NCBI GenBank assembly: GCA_022821445.1
Contig: JAJEDQ010000048.1
Span: 1-52,749, forward strand
Direction of reading: 5' to 3'
Length of the DNA stretch: 52,749 nt
Source of the DNA: Acidimicrobiia bacterium
Lineage (GTDB): Bacteria > Actinomycetota > Acidimicrobiia > Acidimicrobiales > Bin134
Shown here: piece after piece, positions 7,497 through 48,286 of the stretch
Numbering within the stretch: position 1 is the first letter of the stretch
How the letters are laid out: each line of letters opens with the position of its first letter
Translations under genes and position numbers: made by a program
Notes under the pieces: generated by a model
Database searches by the model: none
Told to the model about the DNA's origin: nothing
What the model saw: the letters and a program-made list of their open reading frames with translations, nothing else

Positions 7497-7525
7497 CGGC
7501 CTAGAGAGAAATCAGGTAAACAGAC

Positions 7526-32010: not shown

Positions 32011-32952
32011 TCACTCTCTGGCGTAAACCTCGGCCGCACCCTCTCCGGCGGGGGTGCGGGTGAGGATCTCCGCCTCGTCGTCGTGGCAGAGCAGGGTGTG
32101 TTCGAACTGGGCGCTGCGTCGCTGGTCGGCGGTGACTGCGGTCCACTCGTCGTCCCACAGGTAGAGGTCAGGGGAACCCAGTGTGAGCATCGGCTCGATG
32201 GTGAACGTCATTCCGGTTTCCAGCGGTGTGTTGTGATTGCGTTCGTAGTAGTGGGGGATCTGCAATCCGGAGTGGAACTCGGTGCCCACCCCGTGGCCGA
32301 TGAACTCCCGCACCACCCCTAGCCGGTGGAGCCGAGCATGGGATTCGATGGCCTTCCCGATGGCGCTCACCGGCGCTCCGTTTCTCACCGCTCCGATGCC
32401 CTGGTACATGGCGGCCCGGGTCTCCCTCACCAGCAGACGAGAGTGGTCGTCCACCTCGCCGACCTCGAACGTCACCGACGTGTCGCCGTGGACTCCGTCG
32501 AGGAACACGGTGACGTCGATGTTGACGATGTCGCCGTCGGCCAGCGCCCGGCTGTCGGGGATGCCGTGGCAGATGACCTCGTTGATCGACGTACACACCG
32601 ACTTGGGATAGCCCCGGTAGTTGAGCGGGCTGGGATAGGCCCCCCGGCGCACGATCTCGTCGTGGACTTCGGCGTCGACGCTGTCGGTGGTGACTCCCGG
32701 GGCCACCAGCCGACCGGCAAACAGCAGCACCTCAGCGGCCATCTGCCCCGCCCGGCGCATGGCCTCGATCTCGTCGGCGTTCCGCACTGCTGATGATGTC
32801 GCGGGCCCCGGCTCCCCAGTACGGGCATACGGAGGTCGCTCGATCTCCCGAGGCACCCGCCGCCGCGGCCCGACCAGCCCCGGCCGCACCGGAGGATCCG
32901 AGATCGGCACCCGCTCCAACGTCGCGACCCGCGACCGCTTGCGCTTCGCCAT
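32011..32952 (-). CDS. map: Methionine aminopeptidase type I
   Basis: Removes the initiator methionine. 313 residues. A basic, proline-rich N-terminal extension (about 50 residues, from MAKRKRSRVATLERVP) precedes the pita-bread core. Such extensions are known in actinobacterial MetAP1c enzymes. Metal ligands are in place: NIDVTVFLDGVHGDTS (two Asp), GHGVGTEFH (His), TIEPML (Glu), and a last Glu in FEHTLL. The conserved CTSINEVICHGIPD has the substrate-side His. The first 44 bp reappear, 41 matching, in the scar at 42954-42997, so this gene marks one edge of the accessory island. Confidence 0.93.
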   Translation of the reverse strand: MAKRKRSRVATLERVPISDPPVRPGLVGPRRRVPREIERPPYARTGEPGPATSSAVRNADEIEAMRRAGQMAAEVLLFAGRLVAPGVTTDSVDAEVHDEIVRRGAYPSPLNYRGYPKSVCTSINEVICHGIPDSRALADGDIVNIDVTVFLDGVHGDTSVTFEVGEVDDHSRLLVRETRAAMYQGIGAVRNGAPVSAIGKAIESHARLHRLGVVREFIGHGVGTEFHSGLQIPHYYERNHNTPLETGMTFTIEPMLTLGSPDLYLWDDEWTAVTADQRRSAQFEHTLLCHDDEAEILTRTPAGEGAAEVYARE

Positions 32953-32989
32953 CTCTAGCGGTGTGGCATCACGCCGTGAAATGCACGGT

Positions 32990-33460
32990 TCACAGCAGTT
33001 CCTTGCCGGCTATGCGGCGCTCTAGCCCCCATTTGCCGCTGCCCAGAATCCCTATGACCCATGCACACAAGAAGTGCAACATAACCACCTCTCCGCCATG
33101 GTGGAGGGTGTCGAAGCCATGGTCAGGATGCCAGTAGTGGGGCCACAGCCCTCGTTCCAAATGAATCGCGAAATAGGCCGCTGCGGTCACACACATCATG
33201 GCCCCCGCCGCCAGCCGGGTAAACAGGCCTACGCCAATCATGATCGCGGCGATCAACTCGACCCAGCCAGCGATATCCACTAGGGGGTCTAGGTCTTGCT
33301 CAGCGGGAAAATCCCACAGCAGGAATGTCTTCTGGATGCCGTGCATGGCAGTCAAGATGGCAAAACCCACACGAAAGATCAGATACAGCTCCCCGAAGTG
33401 AGCGCCGAAAAACTGGCCCAGGTACCCGTCTTGGGGGTGTCCCTTTCCGAACTTGAACAT
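32990..33460 (-). CDS. DoxX family membrane protein
   Basis: From ATG 33460, which has AGGTG upstream, 156 residues with four hydrophobic segments: LIFRVGFAILTAMHGIQKTF, then WVELIAAIMIGVGLFTRLAA, MMCVTAAAYFAIHL, and VVMLHFLCAWVIGIL. DoxX proteins are small quinone- or redox-linked membrane proteins of loosely defined role. A longer start at 33475 would add five residues. First gene of the accessory island on the map side. Confidence 0.75.
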   Translation of the reverse strand: MFKFGKGHPQDGYLGQFFGAHFGELYLIFRVGFAILTAMHGIQKTFLLWDFPAEQDLDPLVDIAGWVELIAAIMIGVGLFTRLAAGAMMCVTAAAYFAIHLERGLWPHYWHPDHGFDTLHHGGEVVMLHFLCAWVIGILGSGKWGLERRIAGKELL

Positions 33461-33548
33461 CCTGCACCTACTCAATCAGACTCGCATCTGGGCACTACAA
33501 CTCTGCTCCATGATTGGCTCCAACCGGCAATAATGATATCCGTTAGCA

Positions 33549-34331
33549 TTACCTGCCGGTGAATGTGGCTCGACCAGGGCCATTGTCCAGGAAACTCGCA
33601 ACCCCGATTTGGGCATCATCGGTGTCGAAACAGGCGGCGAACGCCTCGATCTCCACTTCCAGCGCATCATCCAACGGCAAGGCGAATCCCTCCAGAATGG
33701 CCTTCTTGGCAAGGGTGATGGCGGCTGGCCCCTCTGAATAGCGGGCTGCCAGCTTCACCGCCTCGTCGTACACCTCGTCATCGGGGAAAACGGCTGAAGC
33801 CAGCCCTATTGACACGGCCTCCTCGGCCCACACATTGCGTCCGCTGTAGATCAGCTCCTTGGCCTTGGTGATGCCCACCAGACGACTCAGCCTCTGGGTG
33901 CCGCCTCCACCGGGAATGATCCCCAAGTTGATCTCGGGCTGACCCAAAGCCGCCCCCTCGCCGACCAGGCGGAACTCGGCGGCCATAGCCAGCTCACAAC
34001 CCCCGCCCAGCGCATACCCATTGATGGCGCATATCGTGATCTGGGGTAGCAGCTCCACAGCTCGAAACGCAGCATTGAACCTTTGGGCCAGGTCTCGCCC
34101 CTCGTCTACGCCCATGCCGGTGAACTCGCTGATGTCTGCGCCAGCGGCGAACATCCTCGGCCCGCCCCAGATCACCACTGCCCTTATGTCGGTCATCACC
34201 GACAGCTCGCTTACTGCCTGATGCAGCTCTGCCAACACCTGCGCATTCAGCGCATTTGCCTTCGGGCGGTCCAATCGCAGAGTTGCCACCCCAGGGGTGC
34301 CACCGGTTTCGATTCTGACAAATTCGCCCAT
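33549..34331 (-). CDS. Enoyl-CoA hydratase (crotonase)
   Basis: 260 residues. Hydrates 2-enoyl-CoA in beta-oxidation-type reactions. Both catalytic glutamates of rat mitochondrial enoyl-CoA hydratase are present, in GGGCELAMAAEF and GQPEINLGIIPGGGGTQRL. The oxyanion-hole residues are in FAAGADISEF. It could serve the neighbouring biosynthetic cluster or general catabolism. Contrast with the crotonase at 46145, which lacks these glutamates. Confidence 0.88.
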   Translation of the reverse strand: MGEFVRIETGGTPGVATLRLDRPKANALNAQVLAELHQAVSELSVMTDIRAVVIWGGPRMFAAGADISEFTGMGVDEGRDLAQRFNAAFRAVELLPQITICAINGYALGGGCELAMAAEFRLVGEGAALGQPEINLGIIPGGGGTQRLSRLVGITKAKELIYSGRNVWAEEAVSIGLASAVFPDDEVYDEAVKLAARYSEGPAAITLAKKAILEGFALPLDDALEVEIEAFAACFDTDDAQIGVASFLDNGPGRATFTGR

Positions 34332-34392
34332 GGCTACGCTCCCAGCTTCTCCCGCCAGCCAACCGTATTCCGGACGCGCTCTTCCTGCTCAG

Positions 34393-35424
34393 TCATGGTC
34401 CCATCAGGCCTTGTTGCTCTAGGAACTGAACCGTCAGATCGGCGCACTCCTCCGGGGCCTCGAGCTGGAGAAAATGTGTCCTCTCGGGAAGGAAGTCGTA
34501 GTCGAACTCGCCCAGGGTGCGCAGGTCCAAACTGGGCAGGAACGAGTGCCGAACCGTGGGATCGGCGCCAATGGCCTTCAAGGGCACGTCACAGCTGTCC
34601 AGCATGTGAGTCGTGTGCATTGCAAAACCGAAGTACCACTCATAGAGCTGGGCTTCGTGCTCGGGGGGGCAGCGAAGCTCGTATCCACCGCCTTTCGCTT
34701 CCCGGAGCGTGGTCTCGGCCAAAAGCGAAAGCGTCTGGGGCGATATGAGGGAATAGGCCGGTGCCTGGCCGAGCATCTCAGCAAGTTCTTGGCGCGACTT
34801 GAAGTGACTCTGTCGACGTCGGGCCCGCCTCGCTTGGCGCTGGCACACCTCGTCCAAGTATCTGCCCCCTTCTCCGGTCAGTTCGAAGGCCGGATCGAAC
34901 AACACCAAGCTGGCAAAATCCGGCTGTTGCTGCTGGTGCAGCAGCGCAATGATGGTGGACACTGAGTGGAACACGCCATGGCATGGCTTTGGCCCCAAAT
35001 TGGATGAGATGGCATCGAGGACCGCCCGGCTGTCGCTGATCAGAGTCGGGATGTTGTAGGTGTCGATGGGACTGACAGCATTCCAACCATGGCTCCGCAG
35101 ATCGAAGATGCAAATGTCGAAACGGTCGGCCAGGCGCGACCAGTACGGGTAGTAAAGGTCGGCAGCAAGCCCGCAGCCGTGGGTCAGCACCAGCCGCGGA
35201 CCGCTCGGATCGCCGTGCCTCCGTACAGCGATGGCTGTCCCGTCGGCCATGACTGCTTCCACTATCTCTTTGGGAGCCGGAACTCTCCACGGATCCACCG
35301 CTGCACTATATCCACCCGCCATTTGAGGGTTGCGTACCCAGAGGTCGCCCCATTTCTCCATTTCCGAAGCCCCGGCTGGCAATAGGTTCCCGTCGGCGGT
35401 TCGCCTATTCTCTTTCTGACTCAA
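34393..35424 (-). CDS. Alpha/beta hydrolase
   Basis: 343 residues from TTG 35424. A nearer ATG at 35361 (MEKWGDLW...) would give 322 and leave 82 bases, rather than 19, before the divergent leader ORF. Core motifs: LTHGCGLAADLYYPYWSRLA (oxyanion HG), DLRSHGWN, nucleophile elbow VFHSVST with the serine in H-S-V-S rather than G-x-S-x-G, the acid near LVLFDPAFEL or later, and a late His (ERTHFLQ). In a cluster with ketosynthase and ACP genes it could be a thioesterase or tailoring hydrolase. Alternatively it may be a simple esterase. Confidence 0.75.
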   Translation of the reverse strand: MSQKENRRTADGNLLPAGASEMEKWGDLWVRNPQMAGGYSAAVDPWRVPAPKEIVEAVMADGTAIAVRRHGDPSGPRLVLTHGCGLAADLYYPYWSRLADRFDICIFDLRSHGWNAVSPIDTYNIPTLISDSRAVLDAISSNLGPKPCHGVFHSVSTIIALLHQQQQPDFASLVLFDPAFELTGEGGRYLDEVCQRQARRARRRQSHFKSRQELAEMLGQAPAYSLISPQTLSLLAETTLREAKGGGYELRCPPEHEAQLYEWYFGFAMHTTHMLDSCDVPLKAIGADPTVRHSFLPSLDLRTLGEFDYDFLPERTHFLQLEAPEECADLTVQFLEQQGLMGP

Positions 35425-35443
35425 TCAACACAAGGAGTTATCT

Positions 35444-35470
35444 ATGTCGATGATTGTCGAGGGCCTATGA
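35444..35470 (+). CDS. Eight-codon leader ORF coupled to the acyltransferase gene
   Basis: ATG 35444 encodes MSMIVEGL and stops at TGA 35468-35470, which overlaps the acyltransferase ATG at 35467 (ATGA). It has the best ribosome binding site of the region, AAGGAG (35432-35437), six bases upstream. The acyltransferase ATG itself has none. So ribosomes are probably loaded here and reinitiate, making the leader a translational coupler, perhaps also a regulatory peptide. Confidence 0.5.
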   Translation: MSMIVEGL

Positions 35471-36390
35471 GCGCGGACACCCCTCCGGCTGGGGAAGCAG
35501 CAGTCGGGACCAGTGCCAAAGAAGTCGTGATGTTCCCTGGCGGTGGAATCGACATGAACAACATGCGAGACACCCCCTTGCTGGATACCAGCTACCTGAG
35601 GCGCATTAGCAGCTTTCTGGGAATCGACCTCGCAGACCGACTCGCAAAGGGCGAAGTGGGATCCGAACCTGGTCCATATCAGACAAGCGTCGCAGCCCTG
35701 ACCTATGCCTTCACCCGCCAGCGATACGAAGGGGCTCGTCCGATGGCCGTGATCGGACAGTCGAGCGGGGTATGGGCTGCGGCGGCGCTGAAGGGCGCCA
35801 TCCGGATCGAGGATGCGTGCAAATTGCTGATGATCCGCGGACAGCTGATCGCCGAGGCCAGCGCCCGCCACGGCGAGGGGCGGATGCTCTCAGTGGTTGG
35901 ACCGGAGCCTTCTGAGACTGCCGCCGCGGTGGAGGAGATGGACGGATGCTGGGTGTCTGGCGTGATGACTAGGAGTTCGGTAACTCTGGGATGTCGCCTG
36001 GAGGTGCGTGAAGATGTGGAAAGCACCCTCTCCAAGGAGTTGCAGGCCAATGTGGTGCGTCTGCCCATTGACTTCGCCAGCCACTGCCCTCTCATGGCCG
36101 GTGTGGCCGACGAACTCAAGAAGGCCATGAGCGACCTTGAGATATTGGAAGATGGAGACGCCGATGCCATCGACCTTTACGACTGTTTCACCGACGATCC
36201 CGGCCCCGTCGACCTCGATTCACTTTGGGATCGGCTGGCCCGAAATGTCGAGGAACCCTTCGACCTGCTGTCCACCGTGAGATCCTTCGACGAGGACGCG
36301 TTGTTTGTCGAGTCGTTGCCCAACGCGGGCATCTTCAACATGATCCGCTACTGCGGCATCTCCCGGAAACGGATCATCAAGGCCGAATGA
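35467..36390 (+). CDS. FabD-like malonyl/acyl transferase
   Basis: 307 residues of the acyltransferase (AT) family that loads acyl units from CoA onto ACP. Nucleophile S99 sits in VIGQSSGVWAAA (GxSxG as GQSSG). The carboxylate-binding Arg is in MIRGQLIAEAS, suggesting a malonyl-type unit. The catalytic His is in ASHCPLMAG. The N-terminal FPGQG motif is FPGGG here. Partners: ACP (40156) and ketosynthase (39777). It heads a + strand pair with the next SDR, overlapping it by ATGA, and is translationally coupled to a leader ORF. Codon use is less GC-biased than the flanking housekeeping genes. Confidence 0.82.
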   Translation: MSADTPPAGEAAVGTSAKEVVMFPGGGIDMNNMRDTPLLDTSYLRRISSFLGIDLADRLAKGEVGSEPGPYQTSVAALTYAFTRQRYEGARPMAVIGQSSGVWAAAALKGAIRIEDACKLLMIRGQLIAEASARHGEGRMLSVVGPEPSETAAAVEEMDGCWVSGVMTRSSVTLGCRLEVREDVESTLSKELQANVVRLPIDFASHCPLMAGVADELKKAMSDLEILEDGDADAIDLYDCFTDDPGPVDLDSLWDRLARNVEEPFDLLSTVRSFDEDALFVESLPNAGIFNMIRYCGISRKRIIKAE

Positions 36391-37139
36391 AAGCCCTGCC
36401 CCCAGAGCAGGCGCCGGCGGTGGTGGCTAGCGGATCAGGCGGTATCGGCGCCGCCATCGTTAGGTCACTGGTCACCGCTGGCCACCCGGTGGCGTTCGGT
36501 TGCCGGCCGGGCGAGACGGTCTGCGCCGAACTTGAGGCGGAACTAGCCGATCCCGGGTACCTGGCTGCGGCATTCGAGTTGGATGTGCTTGATTCGAATT
36601 CCCTGAGCAGCTTCAGCGCGATGAGCACGGCGCGATTCGGGTCGCCGCTCTGCGTGGTAGTCAACCCTTCGGCCCATTTTGCGGCACCGGTGCAAAACAT
36701 GACCCAACAAGATTGGAGCAGCGTTGTCGATGCAAGCCTCTCGGAGGCATTCCGGCTGATCCAGCACTTTCTACCCGAGATGCAGACGAGCAACTACGGG
36801 CGGGTGGTTGTGGTGGGATCTGCGGCCTCGGTGGTGGGCTACCCGGAACAGGCGGCCTACTGCACATTCGCTGCTGGAATGGAGGGGTTGGTTCGGTCTT
36901 TGGCCGTGGAGCTCGCCCCCCATGATGTGCTGGTGAACGCGGTGGCGCCGGGTTACATCGAAGACGGTGGCGATGGTCTCGCCGGCCAGACCGACAGCAA
37001 GCACATACGGGCCAACACTGCGCTGCGCCGAGCAGGCCAAGCGAGCGAGGTTGCCGAAGTGGTCCGCTTCTTGTGCGGTCCCGGGCCTAGTGCCATGACG
37101 GGATGCGTGCTGCGAGTGGACGGAGGCCTCACTGCTTGA
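36387..37139 (+). CDS. SDR family protein lacking the catalytic lysine (FabG-like, probably degenerate)
   Basis: 250 residues, FabG-like. Rossmann motif SGSGGIGAAI. The catalytic region reads AAYCTFAAGMEGLV: the Tyr is there but YxxxK is YCTFA, so the lysine is missing. NNAG is NPSA. A reductase without the lysine should be inactive or strongly altered, so it may act as a dehydratase-like, structural or partner subunit for the intact SDR encoded opposite it. C-terminal GCVLRVDGGL is normal. Overlaps the AT gene by ATGA and the convergent SDR by 11 bases. Confidence 0.75.
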   Translation: MKALPPEQAPAVVASGSGGIGAAIVRSLVTAGHPVAFGCRPGETVCAELEAELADPGYLAAAFELDVLDSNSLSSFSAMSTARFGSPLCVVVNPSAHFAAPVQNMTQQDWSSVVDASLSEAFRLIQHFLPEMQTSNYGRVVVVGSAASVVGYPEQAAYCTFAAGMEGLVRSLAVELAPHDVLVNAVAPGYIEDGGDGLAGQTDSKHIRANTALRRAGQASEVAEVVRFLCGPGPSAMTGCVLRVDGGLTA

Positions 37140-37863
37140 GGACTGCTGCGGCTTCCCCGCAATCCACGTTCACGATGGTGCCGGTCACATAAGAACTCTG
37201 CGGGCCGGCCAGCCAGCAAATGACAGCGGCCGCCTCTTCCGGGTCGGCCATTCGGCCCAATGGGTTGCGCTCTATCAGGGATTGCCGCCAGCTTTCAGCG
37301 AGCACATCTGTCATGGGCGACTTGACCACGCCGGGCGCCACGATGTTGGCCCGTATGTTGCGGCGGCCCACCTCGCGTGCCAGGGAACGGACTGCTGAGT
37401 TCATCGCCCCTTTGGTCGCCGCGTAGGCCACCTGTCCTGGATCACCGAGTTCCCCCCGCACCGAGCTAACCCACACGATCGAGCCTCGTCGCCGAACCAC
37501 CATCGAGGGCAAAAGCGCCCGAGTCACTGCCAAAGGTCCCAGGAAGTTGATGGAGAGCATCCGCTCTACGGACTCCATCTCGTATTCGGCCAAGAGGGCT
37601 ACCTCGTGAATCCCCGAGGCGGCCACCAGAGCGTCACAGTCCCAGCCAGCGCCATCCAGCCATTTCTCGATCACCCCACCGGCATCGGGGGAGGTGATAT
37701 CAACCCGCAGTTCTTCAACGCCGATGCTCGAAAGCTCCTCCGACAGGCCGCGGCGGCTCACGCCGAGCACGTTCCAGTCCGGTGCCAACTCCCGGCAAAC
37801 CGCCGCTCCTATCGCACCGGTCGCCCCCAGCACAACACATGCCGATTTGGATGTCTCGGTCAT
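37129..37863 (-). CDS. SDR family ketoreductase (FabG-like), intact active site
   Basis: 244 residues. Cofactor motif GATGAIGAAV; NAG-equivalent SGIHE; catalytic Ser in VSSVRG and Tyr/Lys in YAATKGAMNS. C-terminus TGTIVNVDCG is standard. Likely reduces the beta-keto group on the ACP-bound chain made by the ketosynthase. It is the last gene of the minus-strand biosynthetic run (LLM, haloperoxidase-like, ACP, KS, short KS-like, SDR). The 3' end overlaps the opposite SDR by 11 bases. Confidence 0.82.
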   Translation of the reverse strand: MTETSKSACVVLGATGAIGAAVCRELAPDWNVLGVSRRGLSEELSSIGVEELRVDITSPDAGGVIEKWLDGAGWDCDALVAASGIHEVALLAEYEMESVERMLSINFLGPLAVTRALLPSMVVRRRGSIVWVSSVRGELGDPGQVAYAATKGAMNSAVRSLAREVGRRNIRANIVAPGVVKSPMTDVLAESWRQSLIERNPLGRMADPEEAAAVICWLAGPQSSYVTGTIVNVDCGEAAAVLKQ

Positions 37864-37891
37864 GACTCGGGCCTATCAGCTCGGTGGCAAA

Positions 37892-38572
37892 TCAGCCTGA
37901 TTGGTTGCCGACCGGCAGCTCGATGGCCAGTCCCGCGCCTCCCAGTTCCGAGTGAAGGCTCTCCATCTCCAACAGCAACCCGGTTTGCGGCCGAGACGCC
38001 ACCTCTAGCGCATCGCCCTCTTCGCCTCCGGCAACGATGCGCACACCCACCGCACCGACGGTCTCCGGCGGCAACTCGAATCCACCCCCAGCGCGGGCGA
38101 ACACCGCGAATCCAACGTCAACGGCGCCAACGGACACGTCTCGCACCGCGGCGCTTACCGCACTGTGATCGGAGTGAGCGTGATTGGTGTATTGGCAATG
38201 CCGCCAGCACTCGATCCCCTCCTTGCTGGCGAGGTATAGCCCGATGTTGTAAAGCTTGTTCAGCGGCAACAGCGGGTTGAGCCCTTCTGACAGCTTGGTC
38301 AATGCGGCCACTAAGTCGTCCTCATCGGCGAGTTCGTCGGCAAAGTCGATGTCCAATTGCAACGTGTCCTTGGCCCCGGCGAAGTAGAGCCCGCAGCCGA
38401 GCCCCTCCAATTCGCCATCGTTGCCCAGAAGCTGCTTGAAGCAGGCCAGGGTCAAGACTTCGAAATCGGCAACGCAACGGCGGTCGTGGCGAAACGGGAC
38501 CAACTCCCGATAGTCCAACTCATAGGGCACTCCGAATCCAACCTTGGCCGAAGCCGTTACCAGCGCTCTCAT
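37892..38572 (-). CDS. Short KS-like protein (chain-length-factor-like, no active-site Cys)
   Basis: 226 residues; the ATG overlaps the ketosynthase stop (ATGA). The fold appears to be the N-terminal half of a ketosynthase. GLYFAGAKDTLQLD, FNPxxP-like GLNPLLPLNKLYNIG, CQYTNHAHSDHSAVSAAVRD, and VGAVDVGFAVFA line up with the KS segments ending in the Cys loop, but histidine/aspartate replace the cysteine. About half the length of a true KS or CLF (400). This recalls the short KS-like factors (PF13723 type) of aryl polyene and related type II clusters. It would be the KS's partner setting chain length. Function inferred from context; moderate certainty. Confidence 0.6.
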   Translation of the reverse strand: MRALVTASAKVGFGVPYELDYRELVPFRHDRRCVADFEVLTLACFKQLLGNDGELEGLGCGLYFAGAKDTLQLDIDFADELADEDDLVAALTKLSEGLNPLLPLNKLYNIGLYLASKEGIECWRHCQYTNHAHSDHSAVSAAVRDVSVGAVDVGFAVFARAGGGFELPPETVGAVGVRIVAGGEEGDALEVASRPQTGLLLEMESLHSELGGAGLAIELPVGNQSG

Positions 38573-39777
38573 GGCTGCCTCAGGAATAGCGAGGCGTTCG
38601 ATCCGGCCAGCCCGAAGGAGTTTGTGAGCATTCCCCGGCAAGGGCTATGACGGGCGCTGCCGGCGATGTAGTCGTCGAGGCCGCAACGGGGATCAACCTC
38701 ATTGAGGTTGGCCGTTGGGGGCAAGGTGGATGTGTGTACGGCCATCGCACCGAATGCCGCCTCAAGGGCACCGGCGCCCCCAAGGAGGTGCCCGGTGACC
38801 CCCTTTGTCGAGCTAGCGGGTGGTGCGGCATCGCCGAACACTCTCCTGACCCCTTCGCTTTCCGACAAGTCGTTGTCTTCCGTGGATGTTCCGTGCATGT
38901 TTATGTAGTCAACGTCGTCCACGCCGGCGCCCCCGCTGTCGAGAGCCCGCTGCATGGCGAGGGCCTGTATCTCACCGCCGACCGAGCCGGCAGTGAGGTG
39001 AGCTGTCGAGACCGCCGTGCCCCACCCGGCCAACTCGGCGATCGGCTCTACCCCCCGGGCCTCAGCGCTCGCTTCCGACTCGACCACCATGACAGCCGCC
39101 CCCTCGGCGATCACAAATCCGGCCCGGGTTACATCGAACGGCCTCGATGCGGTCTCCGGGGTGGCATTGTGCCTTGTCAACACCCCCATTCGGGAGTGGA
39201 TGGCAACGATGACCTCGTTGATATTGGCATCGACCCCGCCGGTGACCACGATGTCGGCAAGGCCCGAACGCACCATCTCGCCAGCCTCCAATACCGCTAC
39301 GCCGCCGGCCGAACAAGCCGTGGTCACCCCGGAGTAACGGTCGCCGAAATCTGACCCTATGCCCTCGTGGGCGCCTTCCTGGGGACGCCGGTAGTAGTTG
39401 GACAAGTCGCAGCCCTCGATGGTCTCACCCCGCCGGGCGGCGGCGAACTCGTCGAGCTTCCATGCGAACCCGTGGCTGGCCACCACAGCCCTGGCCCGAT
39501 GGTCGCCGAGAAGGCGTCCCCGTTCGAGGCCGGCGCGTTGGAGTGCTTCGGCCTCGGCGAACCGGTAGAAGTCCAAAAGGCGCAGCGGAGACGACTCGAA
39601 GCCGTCCCCATCGCGGGCCGGCACCTGTCCTGCCACCTTGCAGTCGTCATCGCCGACATCGACAATCTCCAGCCTGGCGGTGCCCGAGCGGCCCTGCACC
39701 GCTGCTTCCCAGCAGTTGTCGATCCCCCATCCGACCGGACACACCGTGCCGATGCCAGTGACTAGCGCTCTAGGCAT
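38569..39777 (-). CDS. Beta-ketoacyl-ACP synthase II-like ketosynthase
   Basis: 402 residues, FabF-type. The catalytic triad is complete: C155 (TTACSAGG), H295 (MHGTSTEDND), H330 (TKGVTGHLLGGAG), with K325. The C-terminal NSFGLAGSNASLF replaces the usual FGGHN by AGSN. Condenses malonyl-ACP units with the growing chain. It overlaps the upstream ACP gene by eight bases and the downstream KS-like gene by four, so ACP-KS-CLF are tightly coupled as in type II PKS or aryl polyene systems rather than primary fatty acid synthesis. Confidence 0.87.
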   Translation of the reverse strand: MPRALVTGIGTVCPVGWGIDNCWEAAVQGRSGTARLEIVDVGDDDCKVAGQVPARDGDGFESSPLRLLDFYRFAEAEALQRAGLERGRLLGDHRARAVVASHGFAWKLDEFAAARRGETIEGCDLSNYYRRPQEGAHEGIGSDFGDRYSGVTTACSAGGVAVLEAGEMVRSGLADIVVTGGVDANINEVIVAIHSRMGVLTRHNATPETASRPFDVTRAGFVIAEGAAVMVVESEASAEARGVEPIAELAGWGTAVSTAHLTAGSVGGEIQALAMQRALDSGGAGVDDVDYINMHGTSTEDNDLSESEGVRRVFGDAAPPASSTKGVTGHLLGGAGALEAAFGAMAVHTSTLPPTANLNEVDPRCGLDDYIAGSARHSPCRGMLTNSFGLAGSNASLFLRQP

Positions 39778-40156
39778 TCTCGGAGAGCGCTCTCTGCAAC
39801 ATGCGGGTCAAGTCGCTGACCATTAGCACCACGAAGACATTTTCGACTTTGGCGCTCACCTCGATCCGCCCATCGTCCAACTCGGGTATGAAGTCGTTCA
39901 GCACGGCCAAGCCCTCCTTGGTCACGCCCCGATTCTCATCGAGCCAGCGGATACCAGCTTCCTCGAAGTGCTTTTGCAACTGGGCTACGGCCAAGTCCAC
40001 TCCGAACTGCTTGCGAATCTGATAGTTCATATCAAGAATATCGAGTGAGTCCGCGTCGAGGTCGTCGTACAACAGCGCCCCATCGCTCACTTCGTCCACC
40101 TCGATGTCGAGGGACTCGGCCACGATTTCGCGGACTTTGGCGGCATAGTCTTCCAA
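39770..40156 (-). CDS. Acyl carrier protein with C-terminal extension
   Basis: 128 residues. N-terminal ACP domain with the phosphopantetheine serine S37 in DLDADSLDILDM. ACPs are about 80 residues; here 45 more residues follow (from GVTKEGLAVLND) and end in EVSAKVENVFVVLMVSDLTR, of unknown role. This resembles ACPs of type II secondary metabolism that carry an extra helix. It is the carrier for the KS encoded immediately downstream and would be loaded by the AT at 35467. Confidence 0.87.
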   Translation of the reverse strand: MEDYAAKVREIVAESLDIEVDEVSDGALLYDDLDADSLDILDMNYQIRKQFGVDLAVAQLQKHFEEAGIRWLDENRGVTKEGLAVLNDFIPELDDGRIEVSAKVENVFVVLMVSDLTRMLQRALSENA

Positions 40157-40197
40157 TGGAATCTCCTTTGCAGATCAGACGGCTGGCCCAGCGGGGC

Positions 40198-41907
40198 CTA
40201 CCGGTCGGTCCAATGAGGCTCGTCGAGCATGGTATCGCGCTCCAGGGGCTCAGCCGGACCCCTCAACGGGGCGGTGCCGTCCATGAGGGTTGCCCAGTAG
40301 TCGTAGGCGAGGTCGCCGATCTCGTTGCCCAGGGGCACTGAAACCTCGACGGCGGGCCAGAAATGCACGCCCCCCCAAACTCGGCTGGCCGCGCACAACT
40401 CCTCGTACTCGCTCCACGTCTCGAAGTTGAGCTCGATGTCGCTCGCCGGCGTTATACCGGGTTCGATGGGGTTCGATCCCGCGGGCCGAATACCGACATA
40501 CCCTCCTGTCTCGTCCTCTACCCCTGCGTAGCGGCGCAGAGACTGCGCGTAGGCCCCGCAGAAAGCTGTAGTGGCCGACGGGTACTCGGGATGGTCGGCA
40601 GTGTTTGCGAAGGTTCTCCAAGCGCTGGCTGGAATATCAACGGTGCCCTGTCCCGGGCCACCCCAACCCGATACCGTCTCGTCGCCGAAAAGGTGGCGGA
40701 TGGCGGTGATGGGCCGCACCGCGTCCAAGCGCTGCTTCTCCTGCCAAACGACAACTCCGACATCGTGGGATGCCATCTCCACCAGGAAAGAGACCTGGAT
40801 GAAATCCACTATATCGACAAGGTGTTTGACCTCGGGGAGGATCTGCGAGCCTCGCAGTTTGTTGTCGTAGAACATGACGATTGTCTTCTTGTAATCGTCG
40901 AGGCCGGCAACCTCGGCCAATACCTCTTCGGCCTGGGCCCGGTATGCGTCGGCATTGGCGTGGTCGCTGTCGACAGGCGGCTCAACTCGGTAATCCCGGG
41001 GGTTGAAGCCCGAGAATGGCTCCACGTTCGCCCACTGAGGGGTAACGAACTGCTGTGCCCGGAAAACTCCATCGGTGAACGGAACGATGAGAGGCTGCCA
41101 GCGGGAGGGATCCCTCAGCTCGTGTGGCGTGTTGGTCGGCGCATAGCCGGTGGTGTCCAGCCACTCGACACCGTTCACATCGCCAAATTGGTTGAACCCG
41201 TCATGTCGTCGGGCATCCAGGGTGCAGCGAGCCGCCAGATTTCCTATTGCAGCCGCGGTGGCATCGGTGCGCTCGCTGCTGTCGCAGGGCCAGTCCAGGC
41301 CAGTGTCGTCGTCGGGATCAAGCCCATAGTCGGTCAGAATGGCACGCCATTCGTCGGTTCGGTGGGGGGCAAATTCCAGCATCAAGCGGTAAATGGCGTA
41401 CATCACCGCAGTGTTGGGAAGCAGGTTGTCGTCTGACTCCTGCACCGGGCGCCGAGCAATTCGGGAGTAGATGCCCACTGCTGTCTCGTCATAGGGCGCC
41501 ACCGCGTCGAATGCCGCGCTGTACATCTGCACGGTGTAGCGGAACACCACAGAGGCGTCGTTGAGCGCCGGGGACACCTCGGTGCTGGCCCACGGACCGA
41601 GTCTTGGAATCAAGATTCCGTGCATGGCGTTGCCATTCACCAGATCGAACTCGCCTCTAACCGCCTCGAGCGCCAGCCTTCCGGGATCAGATTCCGGGTC
41701 TGGCGCCGAAGCACCTGAATCAGACGAATCGCCAGATTCCGGGGCTTCCGGTGGCAAGTCGGCAGTTGGGGCCGGCGTACTGGCATCAGGCGCCTGATCT
41801 GGTTCTCCGTCATCAGAGCAGCCCGCCGCGAATACCGCCAGGACACAGAAAACGGCTATCCAGAGCTTCGCCCTTGCCGTTGTAGACGAACCCAATGTTC
41901 CCTTCAT
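40198..41907 (-). CDS. Lipoprotein of the vanadium haloperoxidase/PAP2 family, altered SGH motif
   Basis: 569 residues. Lipobox FAAGC with Cys30, then an acidic Pro/Ser/Asp linker to about residue 73. The rest is all-helical. Vanadate-binding signatures are mostly there: KQRLDAVRP (K and R, near residue 390) and RVWGGVHFWPA (R...H, near 510). The middle motif PSGH reads HPEYPSATTAF (about 440), so the catalytic His is Thr. Vanadium haloperoxidases oxidise halides and halogenate organic compounds; this one may act on the cluster product outside the membrane, or be a phosphatase-like or inactive relative. GAAAG lies just before the ATG at 41907. Confidence 0.78.
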   Translation of the reverse strand: MKGTLGSSTTARAKLWIAVFCVLAVFAAGCSDDGEPDQAPDASTPAPTADLPPEAPESGDSSDSGASAPDPESDPGRLALEAVRGEFDLVNGNAMHGILIPRLGPWASTEVSPALNDASVVFRYTVQMYSAAFDAVAPYDETAVGIYSRIARRPVQESDDNLLPNTAVMYAIYRLMLEFAPHRTDEWRAILTDYGLDPDDDTGLDWPCDSSERTDATAAAIGNLAARCTLDARRHDGFNQFGDVNGVEWLDTTGYAPTNTPHELRDPSRWQPLIVPFTDGVFRAQQFVTPQWANVEPFSGFNPRDYRVEPPVDSDHANADAYRAQAEEVLAEVAGLDDYKKTIVMFYDNKLRGSQILPEVKHLVDIVDFIQVSFLVEMASHDVGVVVWQEKQRLDAVRPITAIRHLFGDETVSGWGGPGQGTVDIPASAWRTFANTADHPEYPSATTAFCGAYAQSLRRYAGVEDETGGYVGIRPAGSNPIEPGITPASDIELNFETWSEYEELCAASRVWGGVHFWPAVEVSVPLGNEIGDLAYDYWATLMDGTAPLRGPAEPLERDTMLDEPHWTDR

Positions 41908-41930
41908 ATCTTTCTTTCCTTTTCCGCCAT

Positions 41931-42845
41931 TTATCCCACCAAAGAGGCCAAGAGTTCCCAGGTGCGCTCCCTCTCTTCGGATGTGCCGGTGGGAGCAACC
42001 AAGATACTGGTCGCGCCGGCCTCCAAGAAAGCCGCGAGCTGATCAGCCACACTGGCTTCGCTTCCGATTATGCACATCTCTCCCGCGCTCGAGAGGCCCT
42101 CACGATCGAGGAGTGTCTTGTACGACGAGGCCTGCTCTTCCTTGCCGAGCAGGTCGGTCGCTCTTGCTCTGGCGCCGTCGATGTCATCGGTCACGCACAC
42201 GGGCAGCCCCACAACTACCTCTGGGGCGCTGCGGCCTGCCGCGGCGGCGGCTTCGTTGATGGTAGGCGCCGTGAATTCCCTGATCGTTCTCAGCCCCGCC
42301 ATCCAAGTGATGGTGCCCGAGGCGACTGTCCCCGCCAACTCCAGCATTCGAGGACCGAGCGCGGCGACCATCACCGGACACGCAGGGCCTTCGATGTCCA
42401 ATTCGCCCCGCATGATGATCCTTTTGCCCTTAACGTAGGCCTGACGCTCCTCCAACAGGAGCAGCAGGATCTCCAGGTACTCAGCCATGTAGTTCACGGG
42501 CCGGTCGAAGCTCTCGCCCCACACGCGCTCCACGAAGAAGCGGTGGGACGCTCCCAGTCCAAGGGTGAGGTTTCCGCCCAGTGCCTTGTTGGCGGTAAGG
42601 GCCTGCTGGGCCATCGCAACGGGATGGCGCGTATAGATCGGAATCACCGCCACGCCCAGGCGCATGTCAATCCCAGATCCAGCCGCCGTCAATGCCGTCA
42701 AAGCGTCCAAACCGGTCGCCTGTGGAAGCCAATAGCCGCCGAATCCCTCTCGGCTAGCCCGTTGAATCTGGGATCGAATCGTGTCAATCGACGTTTCGGC
42801 CGCCGCGCCCCGACTCAGATCAAGCCCGAATATTGAAATGTCCAT
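41931..42845 (-). CDS. LLM class F420-dependent oxidoreductase-like protein
   Basis: 304 residues of the luciferase-like (bacterial luciferase/F420) TIM-barrel family. FGGYWLPQATGLDALTALTA, DMRLGVAVIPIYTRHPVAMAQQALTAN, GLGASHRFFVE and PVMVAALGPRMLELAG are the recurring blocks of actinobacterial F420 members. It likely does a redox step using F420 (or FMN). First gene of the minus-strand biosynthetic run. Its ATG lies 53 bases from the map/maoC scar, so it forms the outer edge of the cluster. Confidence 0.83.
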   Translation of the reverse strand: MDISIFGLDLSRGAAAETSIDTIRSQIQRASREGFGGYWLPQATGLDALTALTAAGSGIDMRLGVAVIPIYTRHPVAMAQQALTANKALGGNLTLGLGASHRFFVERVWGESFDRPVNYMAEYLEILLLLLEERQAYVKGKRIIMRGELDIEGPACPVMVAALGPRMLELAGTVASGTITWMAGLRTIREFTAPTINEAAAAAGRSAPEVVVGLPVCVTDDIDGARARATDLLGKEEQASSYKTLLDREGLSSAGEMCIIGSEASVADQLAAFLEAGATSILVAPTGTSEERERTWELLASLVG

Positions 42846-42897
42846 CCGTCCGTCAACGCCCTAATGAAGGTGATCAACAGCGGTCACCATAGCGTCT

Positions 42898-42997
42898 TCA
42901 GCGCATGTAGCGGGTGAGGCTCTCCACCACGCACGCTGGTTTGGGGCTGCCCTACCCGCTCCAACGTCGCAGTCCGCGACCGCTTGCGCTTCGCCAT
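42898..42997 (-). pseudogene. 100-bp chimeric scar: maoC 3' end joined to map 5' end
   Basis: Bases 42898-42953 match 45677-45732, the last 56 bp of the maoC gene region (55/56). Bases 42954-42997 match 32909-32952, the first 44 bp of map (41/44). The two join without spacer. On the minus strand it reads MAKRKRSRTATLERV and then goes out of the maoC frame. Similarity continues beyond the map ATG (CTCTAGGTGG against CTCTAGCGGTGTGG). Both parents lie on the same strand at the island's two ends, so this is a recombination footprint. Confidence 0.88.
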
Positions 42998-43066
42998 CGC
43001 CCGCTAACTCTAGGTGGCTTCACCTCAGCTTCATGTTGGCGACAGTGCTATGGATAGCGTGAGCTT

Positions 43067-44083
43067 GTGGTCTCTGTGAAGAGTCTCGGCTTAGGGAAGG
43101 CGCTGGAAAGACGGCTCGAAAACGCGGGGTTCGAAACGGTGGAAGAGCTTGCCTCTTGGAACCGGAGGGAGCTGGGGTCGATTCCTGGTATTGGGCCGAA
43201 GAGCATCGACCGGCTCGAGGAGGCCCTTGGGGAGGTTGGGCTAAGGCTCGCAGACGACCCTTTGTCTCCTTACGAGTGCGTTCGGGAGGGGAGGGCTGCA
43301 TGGGATGTGCGGCTTTGTTCGTTTCACCTTTGCGAGCGGTGTGTTGAAGAGTGGACGGAGGGGGCGTTTCGGGGGGAACCGCCTTTGTTCGATGCGACGG
43401 TCCTGTCGGGCAGTTGCCAGAACTGCACTCAGGTCGCCAGCGACCTCCATCTAGTCCAATGGCTTCTGTGCGGAAATTGCGAGCGTGTCGCCCAGTCGAT
43501 AGGGCGGAGCATCGCCGCTGAAAAGTATGTGGCAGCCCGGTTTGAGGAGGCGTTCGGACAATCGCTGCTTGAGCTAGAGCAGTTGGACCAGCCTGTCTTG
43601 CGAGCCCACGACGCTCAGGTGTTGGAACGAAAGACGCCCTCTATCGACTTCATGATTCACGAAGACGGTAGTCCTATCGCTGGCATCGAACTCAAGACTG
43701 GCCGCAGTCATCTTGGGGGATGGGCTCCGGTGGGCGCGAGGATGGCGACGTTCCAGTTGGATCACGGTGACTGTGATGACATAAGGGCAGTAGCGGACAT
43801 GGAGCAGATCGTGGTCTATCTGTTCCACGCACAGGTGATCGACCGGGCCGAGCCGCCCACTACTCGCTATGAGGGAGTTGGTCTGTGGTGGATAGATCCG
43901 TTCAGCTTCAGCGAGAGCTACCAGACCAGCCGGACCCGGCCCCGTGAAACCAAGATCGCCGCCCACTTCTCAACTGATCGGTTTCGACCCTTCGAGGAAC
44001 TCGAGGAACACTGGCAATCGGGCGAAATGGTTAGCGTGCGGCAGCGGTTTGAAGAACGCGGTCTCCCTCCCCTGTACCGCTGA
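43067..44083 (+). CDS. Helix-hairpin-helix / zinc-ribbon / PD-(D/E)XK nuclease, likely restriction endonuclease
   Basis: 338 residues, GTG start (an in-frame GTG at 43076 is possible). An N-terminal helix-hairpin-helix like that of RNA polymerase alpha CTD (SLGLGKALERRLENAGF, LGSIPGIGPKSIDRLEEAL) comes first. A cysteine-rich middle follows with CSFHLCERC, CQNC and CGNC, likely zinc-binding. Then a nuclease core SIDFMIHEDGSPIAGIELKTG with D194, E208 and K210. It converges with the adenine methylase at 44031 and overlaps it by 53 bases, the usual layout of a type II restriction-modification pair. I do not recognise a named endonuclease family with this N-terminal layout. GC is lower than neighbours. 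Confidence 0.72.
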   Translation: MVSVKSLGLGKALERRLENAGFETVEELASWNRRELGSIPGIGPKSIDRLEEALGEVGLRLADDPLSPYECVREGRAAWDVRLCSFHLCERCVEEWTEGAFRGEPPLFDATVLSGSCQNCTQVASDLHLVQWLLCGNCERVAQSIGRSIAAEKYVAARFEEAFGQSLLELEQLDQPVLRAHDAQVLERKTPSIDFMIHEDGSPIAGIELKTGRSHLGGWAPVGARMATFQLDHGDCDDIRAVADMEQIVVYLFHAQVIDRAEPPTTRYEGVGLWWIDPFSFSESYQTSRTRPRETKIAAHFSTDRFRPFEELEEHWQSGEMVSVRQRFEERGLPPLYR

Positions 44084-45587
44084 TCCCACAGGTTGAAGCG
44101 AATTCGCGAAGCCACTGTTCACAAGCCTCGTGAGGGCATGGAGCGGAGCCGAACTGCTCAAGCGTGGCGCGGTCAGGGAACCGGAGGCGTCGCAAGTCTG
44201 CCGCGTTGACCTGGGTATGGCCACTGAATGAACGGAAGTAGACGTCAACCAACTGGTGATTGAGGAAGGCCGCAAGGCCTATTGCGAGCCGACGGTCAAG
44301 GGATGCCCTCTGGCTGTGGAGATAGTTGACGTGGTTCTCTATCCCAAATCTCGAACATTCTGGAAGTGCTTCATCCAGCAGCGGGCCGGCAACGATCCGG
44401 CGAGGCTCTTCCTTGCTGCTGAACCTCTTGACCAGTACGTAATTGCCCCTCGGGGTCAATAGGGATGCGGTGGCCTTCACGTCTTCGATGGCAACCGGCT
44501 TGTTTCTTGAACCAGGCCAACTAACTCCATCCATTTCCACTGCCGACGGATGGAACAGGGGAACTGATCCTGGTGTGAGCTGAGCCCGCAGCCAGCGGCG
44601 AACTCGGAAGTCCACCACCGGGCCGGTCGATGCCTCAACGCCGATAGCGGCAAGCGTGACCGGGAGTTCGTGCATGAGGGCAGCCGCATTGGCTGCGACT
44701 TCGGTCTCTGCCAAATGGATGAATACGTCGTGATCTCCTGGAAAAACAACTTCCTCTGATGGAACGGCTCTCTCAATGACTGTTCCTTCAGGATCACCCA
44801 CCTGTACTCGGATCGTCTGTGGTTGTGCTGGTCCCCTCACTAAATGCGTGACGGCGTTCTCTTGAAGTACTGCCTGATCTGAGAAAGCGCAGGTCCGGCT
44901 CTCAAACACCCGGATCGAAGACAGGGTGTTCTGGCTCAGGAGGGCCTTTCGGAAGCGCTTGAAGTAGGGGCCGTTGCAGAAGCTCCTTGGAGTGATAGCA
45001 ACCATTTCACCGCCAACCTGGAGAAGCGAGGATGCAGCGAGCATGAACGCGGCATAGAGGTTCGGCACCGGTGCTCCAAGTCGCTCCGCCAGAGTCCGTT
45101 CGTTCGACGACGAAGAGAGCTTCGCGTAAGGCGGGTTGAGAATCGCATGCGTCGCTTTCGGCCTCCGAGCCGATAACCCGCATGACCACTCAGCCGCCCT
45201 GTGAAGGAAGTCTTCATTTTGGACTTCGAACTCGAAGGGAATCCCCACCTCCTCGTATTGCTCAGCGACAAGGGCGAGTGATTGCTTCGTTTGTGTGGCC
45301 AAATCAGGGTCGACCTCCCAAGCCAACACCCGCATCGATGACGGGGAGTTGGCCGCTGCCAGCGCACTGATCGCAGCAACAGCCCCGAGGGTGCCTGCTC
45401 CCGAACCGGCATCAATCAACTCAACCTCGCCACGCCACCCTGAGAACATCTCGGCCAGCAGCCGGGCAACCGGAACGGGGGTGAGGACCTGACCGAGGTC
45501 CTTACGGCTTGCCGGATCGATTTCAGCGGCAGCTGAACGCCGGATGGCCTCCAAGTCGTCCCAAATCGTTGCGATACCAGTCAACAT
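44031..45587 (-). CDS. N6-adenine DNA methyltransferase
   Basis: From ATG 45587, 518 residues. An opening GQVLTPVPVARLLAEMF is typical of Eco57I/type I-like N6-adenine methylases (KLGQFFTP motif). SAM-binding motif I is ELIDAGSGAGTLGA; catalytic NPPY is at N151 (ILNPPYAKLSSSSN). The C-terminal 250 residues (target recognition) have no recognisable motifs. It would protect host DNA from the nuclease facing it. Upstream in-frame codons up to 46076 are antisense to maoC and not likely coding. By one-line hand counts GC is about 53-60% here against about 73% in the cation transporter gene, suggesting transfer. Confidence 0.85.
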   Translation of the reverse strand: MLTGIATIWDDLEAIRRSAAAEIDPASRKDLGQVLTPVPVARLLAEMFSGWRGEVELIDAGSGAGTLGAVAAISALAAANSPSSMRVLAWEVDPDLATQTKQSLALVAEQYEEVGIPFEFEVQNEDFLHRAAEWSCGLSARRPKATHAILNPPYAKLSSSSNERTLAERLGAPVPNLYAAFMLAASSLLQVGGEMVAITPRSFCNGPYFKRFRKALLSQNTLSSIRVFESRTCAFSDQAVLQENAVTHLVRGPAQPQTIRVQVGDPEGTVIERAVPSEEVVFPGDHDVFIHLAETEVAANAAALMHELPVTLAAIGVEASTGPVVDFRVRRWLRAQLTPGSVPLFHPSAVEMDGVSWPGSRNKPVAIEDVKATASLLTPRGNYVLVKRFSSKEEPRRIVAGPLLDEALPECSRFGIENHVNYLHSQRASLDRRLAIGLAAFLNHQLVDVYFRSFSGHTQVNAADLRRLRFPDRATLEQFGSAPCPHEACEQWLREFASTCGISGTGEGDRVLQTAAAR

Positions 45588-45676
45588 TACGAGCAAGCTA
45601 CCCAGCACCAGTGACAATTCGATGCGCGGCAAAGCCGCTGAGTTCCGGCAAATCAGAACGGGCGACGGCTCTTGGC

Positions 45677-46135
45677 TCAGCGCATGTAGCGGGTGAGGCT
45701 CTCCACCACGCAGGCTGGTTTGGGGCTGCCCTCGACTTCCACGGTGATGGTGATCACGGCCTGCACTCCGCTGTTGATCTCGTCTGCTGAGCTGAGCTCG
45801 GCGCCCACCCGGATGCGCGATCCCACCGGAACAGGGGAGGGGAACCGCACCTTGTTGACGCCGTAGTTGATGCCCATGGAGATCTGCTCCACGGTGATCA
45901 GGCTGGGCAGGAACATGTTGGTTATCGACAGCGTGAGGTAGCCGTGGGCGATGGTGGCGCCATACGGGCTCTCCGCGGCGGCTCGCTCGGGATCGATGTG
46001 GATCCACTGGTGGTCGCCGGTGGCGTCGGCGAACTGGTTCACCCGCTCCTGGGTGATCTCCATCCAGTCGCTCCATCCCAAGTGCTGGCCGACCGCGGCC
46101 GGCAGGTCATCGACAGTGGCAAAAACGGTTCCCAT
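45677..46135 (-). CDS. MaoC-like (R)-hydratase
   Basis: 152 residues, single hotdog MaoC domain. The hydratase motif is ADATGDHQWIHIDPERA (catalytic D and H), followed by SPYGATIAHGYLTLSI. Hydrates or dehydrates (R)-3-hydroxyacyl-CoA. It ends with ESLTRYMR; these last 56 bp have a 55/56 copy at 42898-42953. It sits nine bases before the crotonase gene at 46145, both on the minus strand. Marks the right edge of the accessory island. Confidence 0.88.
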   Translation of the reverse strand: MGTVFATVDDLPAAVGQHLGWSDWMEITQERVNQFADATGDHQWIHIDPERAAAESPYGATIAHGYLTLSITNMFLPSLITVEQISMGINYGVNKVRFPSPVPVGSRIRVGAELSSADEINSGVQAVITITVEVEGSPKPACVVESLTRYMR

Positions 46136-46144
46136 TGCGGCAAG

Positions 46145-46918: not shown

Positions 46919-46960
46919 GCAACTGAGACTACCCGCCTGCGGTGTGCTACCCATTGGGGC

Positions 46961-47863: not shown

Positions 47864-48286
47864 CTAGTCGGCCGGCTCGAAGTAGGGCAGGGTTATCTCG
47901 TCGCTCAATTCCACGAACGTAGTCTGCACCCGCATTCCGACGTGGACGGCGTCGACCGGGCAGTTGATGATGTTGGCCAACAGCCAGAAGCCTTCGTCAA
48001 GGGTGACGATGACCGCCACGTAGGGCACGGTGAATGCGGGGGTTTGGGGCCGCCACACGGTGGTACAGGAGTACACCTCGCCGAGGCCGGTGCTGACCTC
48101 CCATTCGAGGTTCTCCGAGAAGCAGGCCGAGCAGGCCGGGGCCGGGTCCATGGTGATGGCACCGCAGTCTTGGCACCGCTGAAAGCGCAGCTCGCCGATC
48201 TGGCAGCCGTCCCAGTAGGGCTGGGAGTAAATCGTGGGCACGGGCAGGGGGATGCCGGGCGACTGGGGTTGCAGAATCTCGCTCAT
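47864..48286 (-). CDS. DUF35 (ChsH2 C-domain-like) OB-fold protein
   Basis: 140 residues: an N-terminal zinc ribbon (CQDCGAITMDPAPACSAC) and an OB-fold. This is the stand-alone form of the domain that partners thiolase-like aldolases such as Ltp2. The thiolase-like gene just upstream on the same strand (48351) would be its partner, giving a second, simpler version of the 18526-21123 pair. The ATG overlaps the stop of a 23-codon minigene. Confidence 0.85.
   Translation of the reverse strand: MSEILQPQSPGIPLPVPTIYSQPYWDGCQIGELRFQRCQDCGAITMDPAPACSACFSENLEWEVSTGLGEVYSCTTVWRPQTPAFTVPYVAVIVTLDEGFWLLANIINCPVDAVHVGMRVQTTFVELSDEITLPYFEPAD

Follow-up and report, generated by a model that had tools for sequence, protein, structure and literature searches.

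A type II FAS/PKS-like gene cluster with a haloperoxidase-family gene on a genomic island of apparently sponge-associated Acidimicrobiia

Introduction

What might a bacterium of the class Acidimicrobiia make with a set of fatty acid synthase-like genes next to a haloperoxidase-family gene, and how did it come by them? The question is raised by a window of 52,749 nucleotides (the whole stretch of DNA that was analysed, contig JAJEDQ010000048.1 of assembly GCA_022821445.1), one contig of a 3.4-Mb genome in 256 contigs that belongs to the same genus as Candidatus Poriferisocius aerobius. Eleven genes of this window form an island that is probably a compact iterative reducing pathway of the type II fatty acid synthase/polyketide synthase (FAS/PKS)-like kind, horizontally acquired, in apparent sponge symbionts. 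This reading is supported by the gene families, by a core and gene overlaps that are constant in all seven complete loci, by a separate primary FAS locus in the genome, by a ketosynthase clade of its own, by an empty insertion site in relatives, by a conflict between species and cluster trees, by a lowered GC content at third codon positions (GC3), and by a phosphopantetheinyl transferase (PPTase) gene next to the cluster in another genome.

Genes of the cluster

Conservation is counted over seven complete loci, namely those in the window, L049, L050, L051, L052, L054, and L055; L053 ends at a contig edge and was excluded. The island and its genes are as follows.

32954..42897: the island, 11 genes, 9,944 bases, bounds from flank alignments, duplicated flank pieces, and GC
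32990..33475, minus strand: DoxX-family membrane protein (PF07681, E 2.2e-8; 4/7 loci)
33549..34331, minus strand: enoyl-CoA hydratase (crotonase, ECH), proposed dehydratase (PF00378, E 1.5e-56; 6/7 loci)
34393..35424, minus strand: alpha/beta hydrolase, proposed release thioesterase (PF12697, E 1.6e-9; 6/7 loci)
35467..36390, plus strand: FabD-like acyltransferase (AT) with Ser99, Arg124, and His206 (PF00698, E 1.5e-11; 6/7 loci)
36387..37139, plus strand: short-chain dehydrogenase/reductase (SDR) without the catalytic Tyr-x3-Lys, a pseudo-enzyme (PF13561, E 1.2e-40)
37129..37863, minus strand: intact ketoreductase-type SDR (KR) (PF13561, E 1.7e-40)
37892..38572, minus strand: short partner of the ketosynthase, 226 aa, orphan family without Pfam or NCBIfam match, overlapping the ketosynthase gene by 4 bases
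38569..39777, minus strand: FabF-like ketosynthase (KS) with C155, H295, K325, and H330 (PF02801, E 3e-24; PF00109, E 4.6e-21)
39770..40156, minus strand: acyl carrier protein (ACP) with Ser37 (PF00550, E 6.9e-8, residues 7-62 of 128)
40198..41907, minus strand: exported vanadium-haloperoxidase-family protein (PF22778 VCPO_2nd, E 4.4e-41; PF21167)
41931..42845, minus strand: F420-type LLM oxidoreductase (TIGR03564, 292.9 bits, cut-off 234.25; 6/7 loci)

A preliminary description of this DNA, made from the sequence alone, had proposed a compact type II FAS/PKS-like cluster, and a dedicated cluster of this kind is real and conserved. Open reading frames (ORFs), Pfam, and NCBIfam bore out the ACP, KS, ketoreductase, AT, lysine-less SDR, hydrolase, LLM, and haloperoxidase-family genes at nearly the positions first given. 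The cluster had been drawn from 34393 to 42845; the genes are there, but the set reaches further left, to 32990, adding the enoyl-CoA hydratase and DoxX genes, which are counted as members because they recur in other loci. The 8-base overlap of ACP and KS and the 4-base overlap of KS and partner were read correctly, as was the full Cys-His-His triad of the KS: C155, H295, and H330, together with K325, are invariant in the seven aligned cluster KSs.

The two SDRs differ in the way that had been described. The ketoreductase-type SDR is intact, with Tyr-x3-Lys in 7/7 orthologues, whereas in the plus-strand SDR the catalytic Lys is found in 0/7 and the Tyr in 1/7 orthologues. We propose that the intact and the dead SDR form a heteromeric ketoreductase. 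In the AT, Ser99, Arg124, and His206 are invariant in 4/4 aligned sequences, and the Arg, whose role we presume to be that in FabD, favours a dicarboxylic extender. The phosphopantetheine serine of the ACP, Ser37, is likewise invariant in 4/4 aligned sequences; the protein of 128 aa continues past the PP-binding match with about 65 conserved C-terminal residues that no Pfam model covers. Both catalytic glutamates of the enoyl-CoA hydratase, at what we take to be their positions, are kept, and the Ser and His of the alpha/beta hydrolase are conserved in the complete alignment rows.

Distribution and conservation

Of 395 genomes of the class, 4 contain the partner gene, as do 2 of 396 genomes in a sample of the phylum (the window's genome and G075). 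At E <=0.1 the phylum sample gave matches in 14/396 genomes, and the 12 further ones are weak (E 0.0014-0.087); inspection of 7 of these 12 suggests SDRs, further unrelated proteins, or shadow ORFs. No partner match was found on plasmids. Within the window's own family the partner is present in 7 of 22 genomes, all of one genus, and in the family of G075 in 1 of 51. A scan of genome contigs, the only search that reached into other phyla and one whose two short patterns detect close relatives only, gave seven loci (L049-L055), 7 of the 77 stretches with the pattern being confirmed. In total the carriers are eight genomes, the window's and seven others, and all finds of the cluster come from two families within a single order.

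The gene set is kept in these relatives, which was one test of a dedicated cluster. ACP, KS, partner, KR, second SDR, and haloperoxidase genes form a core present in 7/7 loci; LLM, ECH, AT, and hydrolase genes are each present in six of the seven, and DoxX in four (L051 and L055 stop soon past the cluster). The overlaps of 8 and 4 bases are the same in all seven, the window included, although other genes have been rearranged.

Several neighbouring genes were considered as members and set aside because they are not general: ABC transporter genes (read in L046) next to the cluster of L050, AAA/DUF4143 genes in both L051 and L055, and an acyl-CoA carboxyltransferase gene that lies together with another LLM-family gene upstream of the haloperoxidase gene in L054 (2820-5341) and L055 (1-2179), where the two could be extender supply or chance neighbours. 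A PPTase gene adjoins the LLM gene in G075. The PPTase and the carboxyltransferase would fit a malonyl-using, ACP-based path. In L055 a second enoyl-CoA hydratase paralogue (7236-8018) lies between haloperoxidase and ACP genes, at the position that the LLM gene has elsewhere.

The names of carrier genomes include RHO3_bin_4, CAR2_bin_19, SB0675_bin_2, and Candidatus Poriferisocius aerobius, the last being the genome of L055. We read the prefixes RHO and CAR as Rhopaloeides odorabile and Carteriospongia foliascens, and presume a sponge origin for SB0675 as well. Both sponges are among those sampled in PMC8163846, and one Poriferisocius metagenome-assembled genome (MAG) has also been obtained from corals (PMC12625765). 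Judged from the genome names, the carriers are thus a few Acidimicrobiia that apparently live as symbionts of sponges. The preliminary description knew of no described cluster with this gene set, and none was recognised in the open-licence literature searched; a published catalogue of such type II PKS gene clusters (PMC10132072) has no match for Acidimicrobi, sponge, or haloperoxidase in its main text.

A genomic island between two conserved genes

In three genomes of the same genus that do not have the partner gene (G383, G320, and G252), a methionine-aminopeptidase-like gene (called MAP here) and a MaoC gene are only 40 bases apart. In the window the same two genes, whose proteins are 94% and 96% identical to those of G383, are separated by 12.7 kb on one contig. 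Alignments of the flanks to all three genomes stop at 32953 and resume at 45674-45676. Between the flanks follow, in this order, the cluster, a copy of the 3' end of the MaoC gene, a copy of the 5' end of the MAP gene with the spacer of the empty site, and a pair of genes for an HHH-domain protein and a methyltransferase. The two flank copies are these.

42898..42953: copy of the MaoC gene 3' end (identity 98.2% with 45677-45732 across 56 bases)
42954..43012: copy of the MAP gene 5' end plus spacer (identity 93.3% with 32909-32953 across 45 bases, and 98.3% with the G383 empty site across 59 bases)

The copies, of 56 and 45 bases, are fused at 42953/42954. The bounds 32954-42897 obtained from the alignments match the gene set that was defined independently by synteny. 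Base composition differs as well: the GC content is 0.618 in the island versus 0.645 and 0.667 in the flanks, and GC3 is 0.71-0.78 in all 11 island genes compared to 0.81-0.87 in four flanking genes and 0.63-0.68 in the HHH/methyltransferase pair.

The empty site in relatives, the fused flank copies, and the tree conflict described below mark the cluster as a genomic island, about 9.9 kb long, that was acquired horizontally. In the simplest history that we infer, the HHH/methyltransferase pair would have been inserted first and the cluster would have arrived later, carried on a molecule that joined the end of MaoC to the start of MAP, e.g. a circle or an otherwise head-to-tail form, and taken up at the start of MAP. 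The fused copies at 42898-43012 suggest such an arrival as a circle or head to tail beside an older insertion.

The presumably older insertion consists of the gene for the HHH-domain protein (43067-44083) beside that of an Eco57I-type methyltransferase (~44031-45650; PADLOC MTase_II, E 1.3e-135). They are probably a restriction-modification pair, and no nuclease domain was recognised in them. The same pair is present in G322 (L132, 10540-13129) together with an IS481-type transposase at this site and without the partner gene, the DNA being 81% identical over 43095-47868. The gap between MAP and MaoC looks like an insertion hotspot.

Cluster history and species history

RpoB was found in 18 of the 19 genomes queried and not in the genome of L053. 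In the RpoB tree the window's genome groups with G252, G320, and G383 (support 99/99), and G181 with G242 (96/100). In the tree of the cluster, built from six proteins with 1872 columns, G075 and G181 join the window, L051, L054, and L055 join G242, and all four inner branches have support of 100/100; G075 belongs to another family. The natural reading of such a conflict at supported nodes is transfer between lineages. The alternative would be vertical inheritance with many losses and no transfer at all. Since the cluster was met in no more than two families, both of one order, the losses needed would not be absurd. Yet this alternative has to cope with the conflict at supported nodes, and also with the site being empty in three close relatives, with the doubled pieces of the flanks, and with a GC3 of the island below that of its neighbours. 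We therefore regard a purely vertical history as very improbable.

Ketosynthase and primary fatty acid synthesis

The family that best matches the KS in NCBIfam is fabF, with 281.7 bits against a cut-off of 493.75. A quick tree was built from 64 KSs of the phylum and includes no named reference KSs of aryl polyene, ladderane, Sup, or Swf systems. In it the seven cluster KSs make up a single clade (support 100) whose stem measures 2.1 changes per column. The clade lies on the FabF-like side and apart from ten KSs in frames of at least 840 aa, which were taken for type I. The genome has a primary FAS locus elsewhere, with FabD, FabH, FabG, ACP, and FabF on contig C64, and the KS of the island is distant from it in the tree. 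Because of this separate locus, which speaks for a dedicated cluster as the preliminary description had it, the island is not the primary FAS. A third ACP-like domain is encoded outside both the island and the primary FAS (G000:C223:18997-19209).

The island could instead encode a secondary FAS whose products, ordinary fatty acids of the hydroxy or unsaturated kind, would go into membrane or storage lipids. The best family of the KS being fabF, and AT, KR, and ACP coming from FAS superfamilies, would agree with this. However, the KS remains far below the fabF cut-off and sits on a very long stem, neither a hot-dog dehydratase nor a FAS-type enoyl reductase was recognised among the 11 genes, the genome already has a primary FAS, and the patchy presence (7/22 genomes in its own family) and mobility are against such a role. 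We consider a secondary FAS unlikely, though clearly less so than a history without transfer.

The short partner and the haloperoxidase-family protein

A number of observations weigh against the reading of the island as one acquired pathway, and most of them concern the partner of the KS and the haloperoxidase-family protein. The preliminary description had called the partner a half-length KS-like protein without the cysteine. The short gene coupled to the KS is there, but its likeness to a KS is suggestive only: neither Pfam nor NCBIfam gives a match to the protein at E 0.01, and PF13723, the half-KS family, gave in a search of the window's own genome one weak match elsewhere and none at the partner. 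Aligned with hhalign to shallow profiles (the cluster KSs and a small FabF set), the partner is not significant, with E 0.44 or worse. Against a profile of 64 KS rows the E value is 0.027 with first-row columns or 0.081 with the 50% rule, and 5 of 200 column-shuffled controls score as high. Two AlphaFold2 models, from 4 and 8 sequences, are poor (mean predicted local distance difference test 35.2 and 34.0) and unusable, and a profile search of the PDB with the partner gave five matches at E <=10, none of them a KS and the best a hyaluronidase chain (E 0.0068).

It might thus be that the partner is a new accessory protein and not a relative of KSs, perhaps acting as an adaptor of the KS or of the long ACP, while the KS works as a FabF-like homodimer. 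The missing family match, the shallow alignments, and the want of a good structure model are all in line with this. On the other hand, the alignment to the deeper KS profile is co-linear, placing partner residues ~30-156 on KS 61-179, and its E value of 0.027 compares with 0.64 for the reversed KS profile and 0.11, 0.22, and 0.47 for three unrelated profiles. As a hint only, Foldseek with the second, poor model returned 123 matches at E <=10 and none at 0.001, and among the 50 best matches KS domains took ranks 1, 2, 3, 5, and 24, the top E value of 0.32 not being significant. In addition, the chain length factor (CLF) of aryl polyene synthases is about half the size of a KS and has one thiolase fold (PMC8358021), which gives a precedent in kind for a partner of this sort. 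We regard an unrelated accessory protein as a possibility to be reckoned with, but as the lesser one.

The haloperoxidase-family protein is better anchored. Its nearest relatives in the PDB are 9ptr (E 7.2e-131), 9l8x, NapH1 (3w35, E 3e-100), and NapH3. The motifs of the vanadate pocket, which we take to be K-x6-RP, PS-G/A, and SR-x3-G-x-H, are present as K-x6-RP, PSAT-T, and SRVWGGVH in all seven orthologues. At the acid-base position all seven have Thr, which is not the His that follows the PSG motif of the fungal enzyme. The His does not define the bacterial branch, however, because two close solved relatives, 9ptr and 9l8x, have Ser there. By eye, all seven orthologues start with a signal sequence. 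The protein had been described as a lipoprotein; this would hold for the window and L049, in which a lipobox Cys is seen by eye, while the other five of the seven have an ordinary-looking signal sequence. The protein would thus be exported, whereas the rest of the pathway looks cytosolic, so that it may act on something else.

The haloperoxidase could be a bystander of chain synthesis that acts at the cell surface, in defence or against signals, by making hypohalite or detoxifying peroxide, and the acyl product would not be halogenated. In keeping with this, apparently no other enzyme of the island has a signal sequence by eye, and NapH1 has also been described to release HOBr in unspecific bromination (PMC8407142). 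But the haloperoxidase gene is part of the cluster in 7/7 loci, mostly adjoining the ACP or LLM gene, and among the closest relatives of solved structure are the napyradiomycin biosynthesis enzymes NapH1 and NapH3. Of the alternatives discussed here we take this one most seriously, without preferring it to a haloperoxidase that belongs to the pathway.

The remaining points against an acquired pathway concern its integrity and its transfer. Single loci lack single genes within the stretches covered: ECH in L050, AT and hydrolase in L054, and LLM in L055. No integrase or transposase was recognised among the 11 island genes. The bootstrap of the RpoB tree had not settled and its outgroup branch is very long, and as the other genomes are MAGs, mis-binning may add to the tree conflict.

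Relation to known systems

Measured against the list of aryl polyene (Ape) genes that we assume to be typical, the island has no aryl-starter ligase, ammonia lyase, or hot-dog dehydratase among its 11 genes (one of which is without family match), its partner is not matched by PF13723, and it has a haloperoxidase, LLM, AT, and dead SDR in addition. What it shares with Ape clusters and their ApeO-ApeC KS-CLF heterodimer is an ACP, a ketoreductase, and a KS coupled to a half-length partner, the CLF of half size being described in PMC8358021. Like the sponge-specific KS groups Sup and Swf (PMC9864124; for swf also PMC3908369), the island has a KS lineage apparently tied to sponge symbionts; unlike these, which by their descriptions are type I with multi-domain or mono-modular proteins, it is type II with separate proteins.

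With the bacterial vanadium-dependent haloperoxidases NapH1, NapH3, 9ptr, and 9l8x, the island protein matches over the whole length (E <=5.4e-91 for all four) and has kept the pocket motifs, and it differs from 9ptr and 9l8x in the Thr at the acid-base position and from all four in being coupled to a type II FAS/PKS-like set. KS, KR, AT, and ACP are of the same superfamilies as in primary type II FAS, from which the island is distinguished by the genome's own FAS locus elsewhere and the far-off position of its KS. Of a minimal type II PKS set, both the discrete KS with Cys-His-His and the discrete ACP with the phosphopantetheine Ser are present. The third component would be a chain length factor, a KS paralogue that lacks the Cys; the short partner is a candidate for it, with E 0.027 or 0.081 against the deeper KS profile, no significant alignment to shallow profiles, and 5 of 200 shuffled controls scoring as high.

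Proposed pathway and meaning

Taking the gene families at face value, the acyltransferase would load units, probably malonyl, onto the ACP, and the FabF-like KS with its short partner would extend the chain. The intact SDR, perhaps complexed with the dead SDR, would reduce the keto group, and the crotonase would dehydrate the product, which would make the acyl chain a polyene or leave it unsaturated or hydroxylated. This chain might then be reduced or oxidised by the F420 LLM enzyme and released by the hydrolase. Finally, the exported haloperoxidase-family protein would oxidise or halogenate the product outside the membrane. The most likely function would be that of an iterative, reducing type II FAS/PKS-like line whose product undergoes oxidation or halogenation once exported. 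A short polyene or modified fatty acid, as the preliminary description put forward, would be a possible product.

Unusual and halogenated lipids abound in sponges, and most of their makers await assignment. A bolder and rather doubtful idea, put forward tentatively, is that the island represents a sponge-symbiont-specific lineage of type II carbon-chain synthases beside Sup and Swf, with a KS, an orphan half-KS, and a dead SDR, mobile between symbiont families, whose lipid or polyene would be halogenated by an exported vanadium haloperoxidase at the interface of sponge and microbe.

Conserved and clearly bounded, the cluster is also mobile and has an apparent tie to sponge symbionts, and we infer its chemistry from the families of its genes. 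As a bounded unit of 11 genes with natural pairs of genomes that have or lack the island, it allows the product to be sought by comparison or by expression of a fragment of ~10 kb. With its orphan partner and dead SDR the island would add to what is understood about heteromeric type II synthases, and its transfer history would be a case of symbionts passing biosynthetic capacity on to one another.

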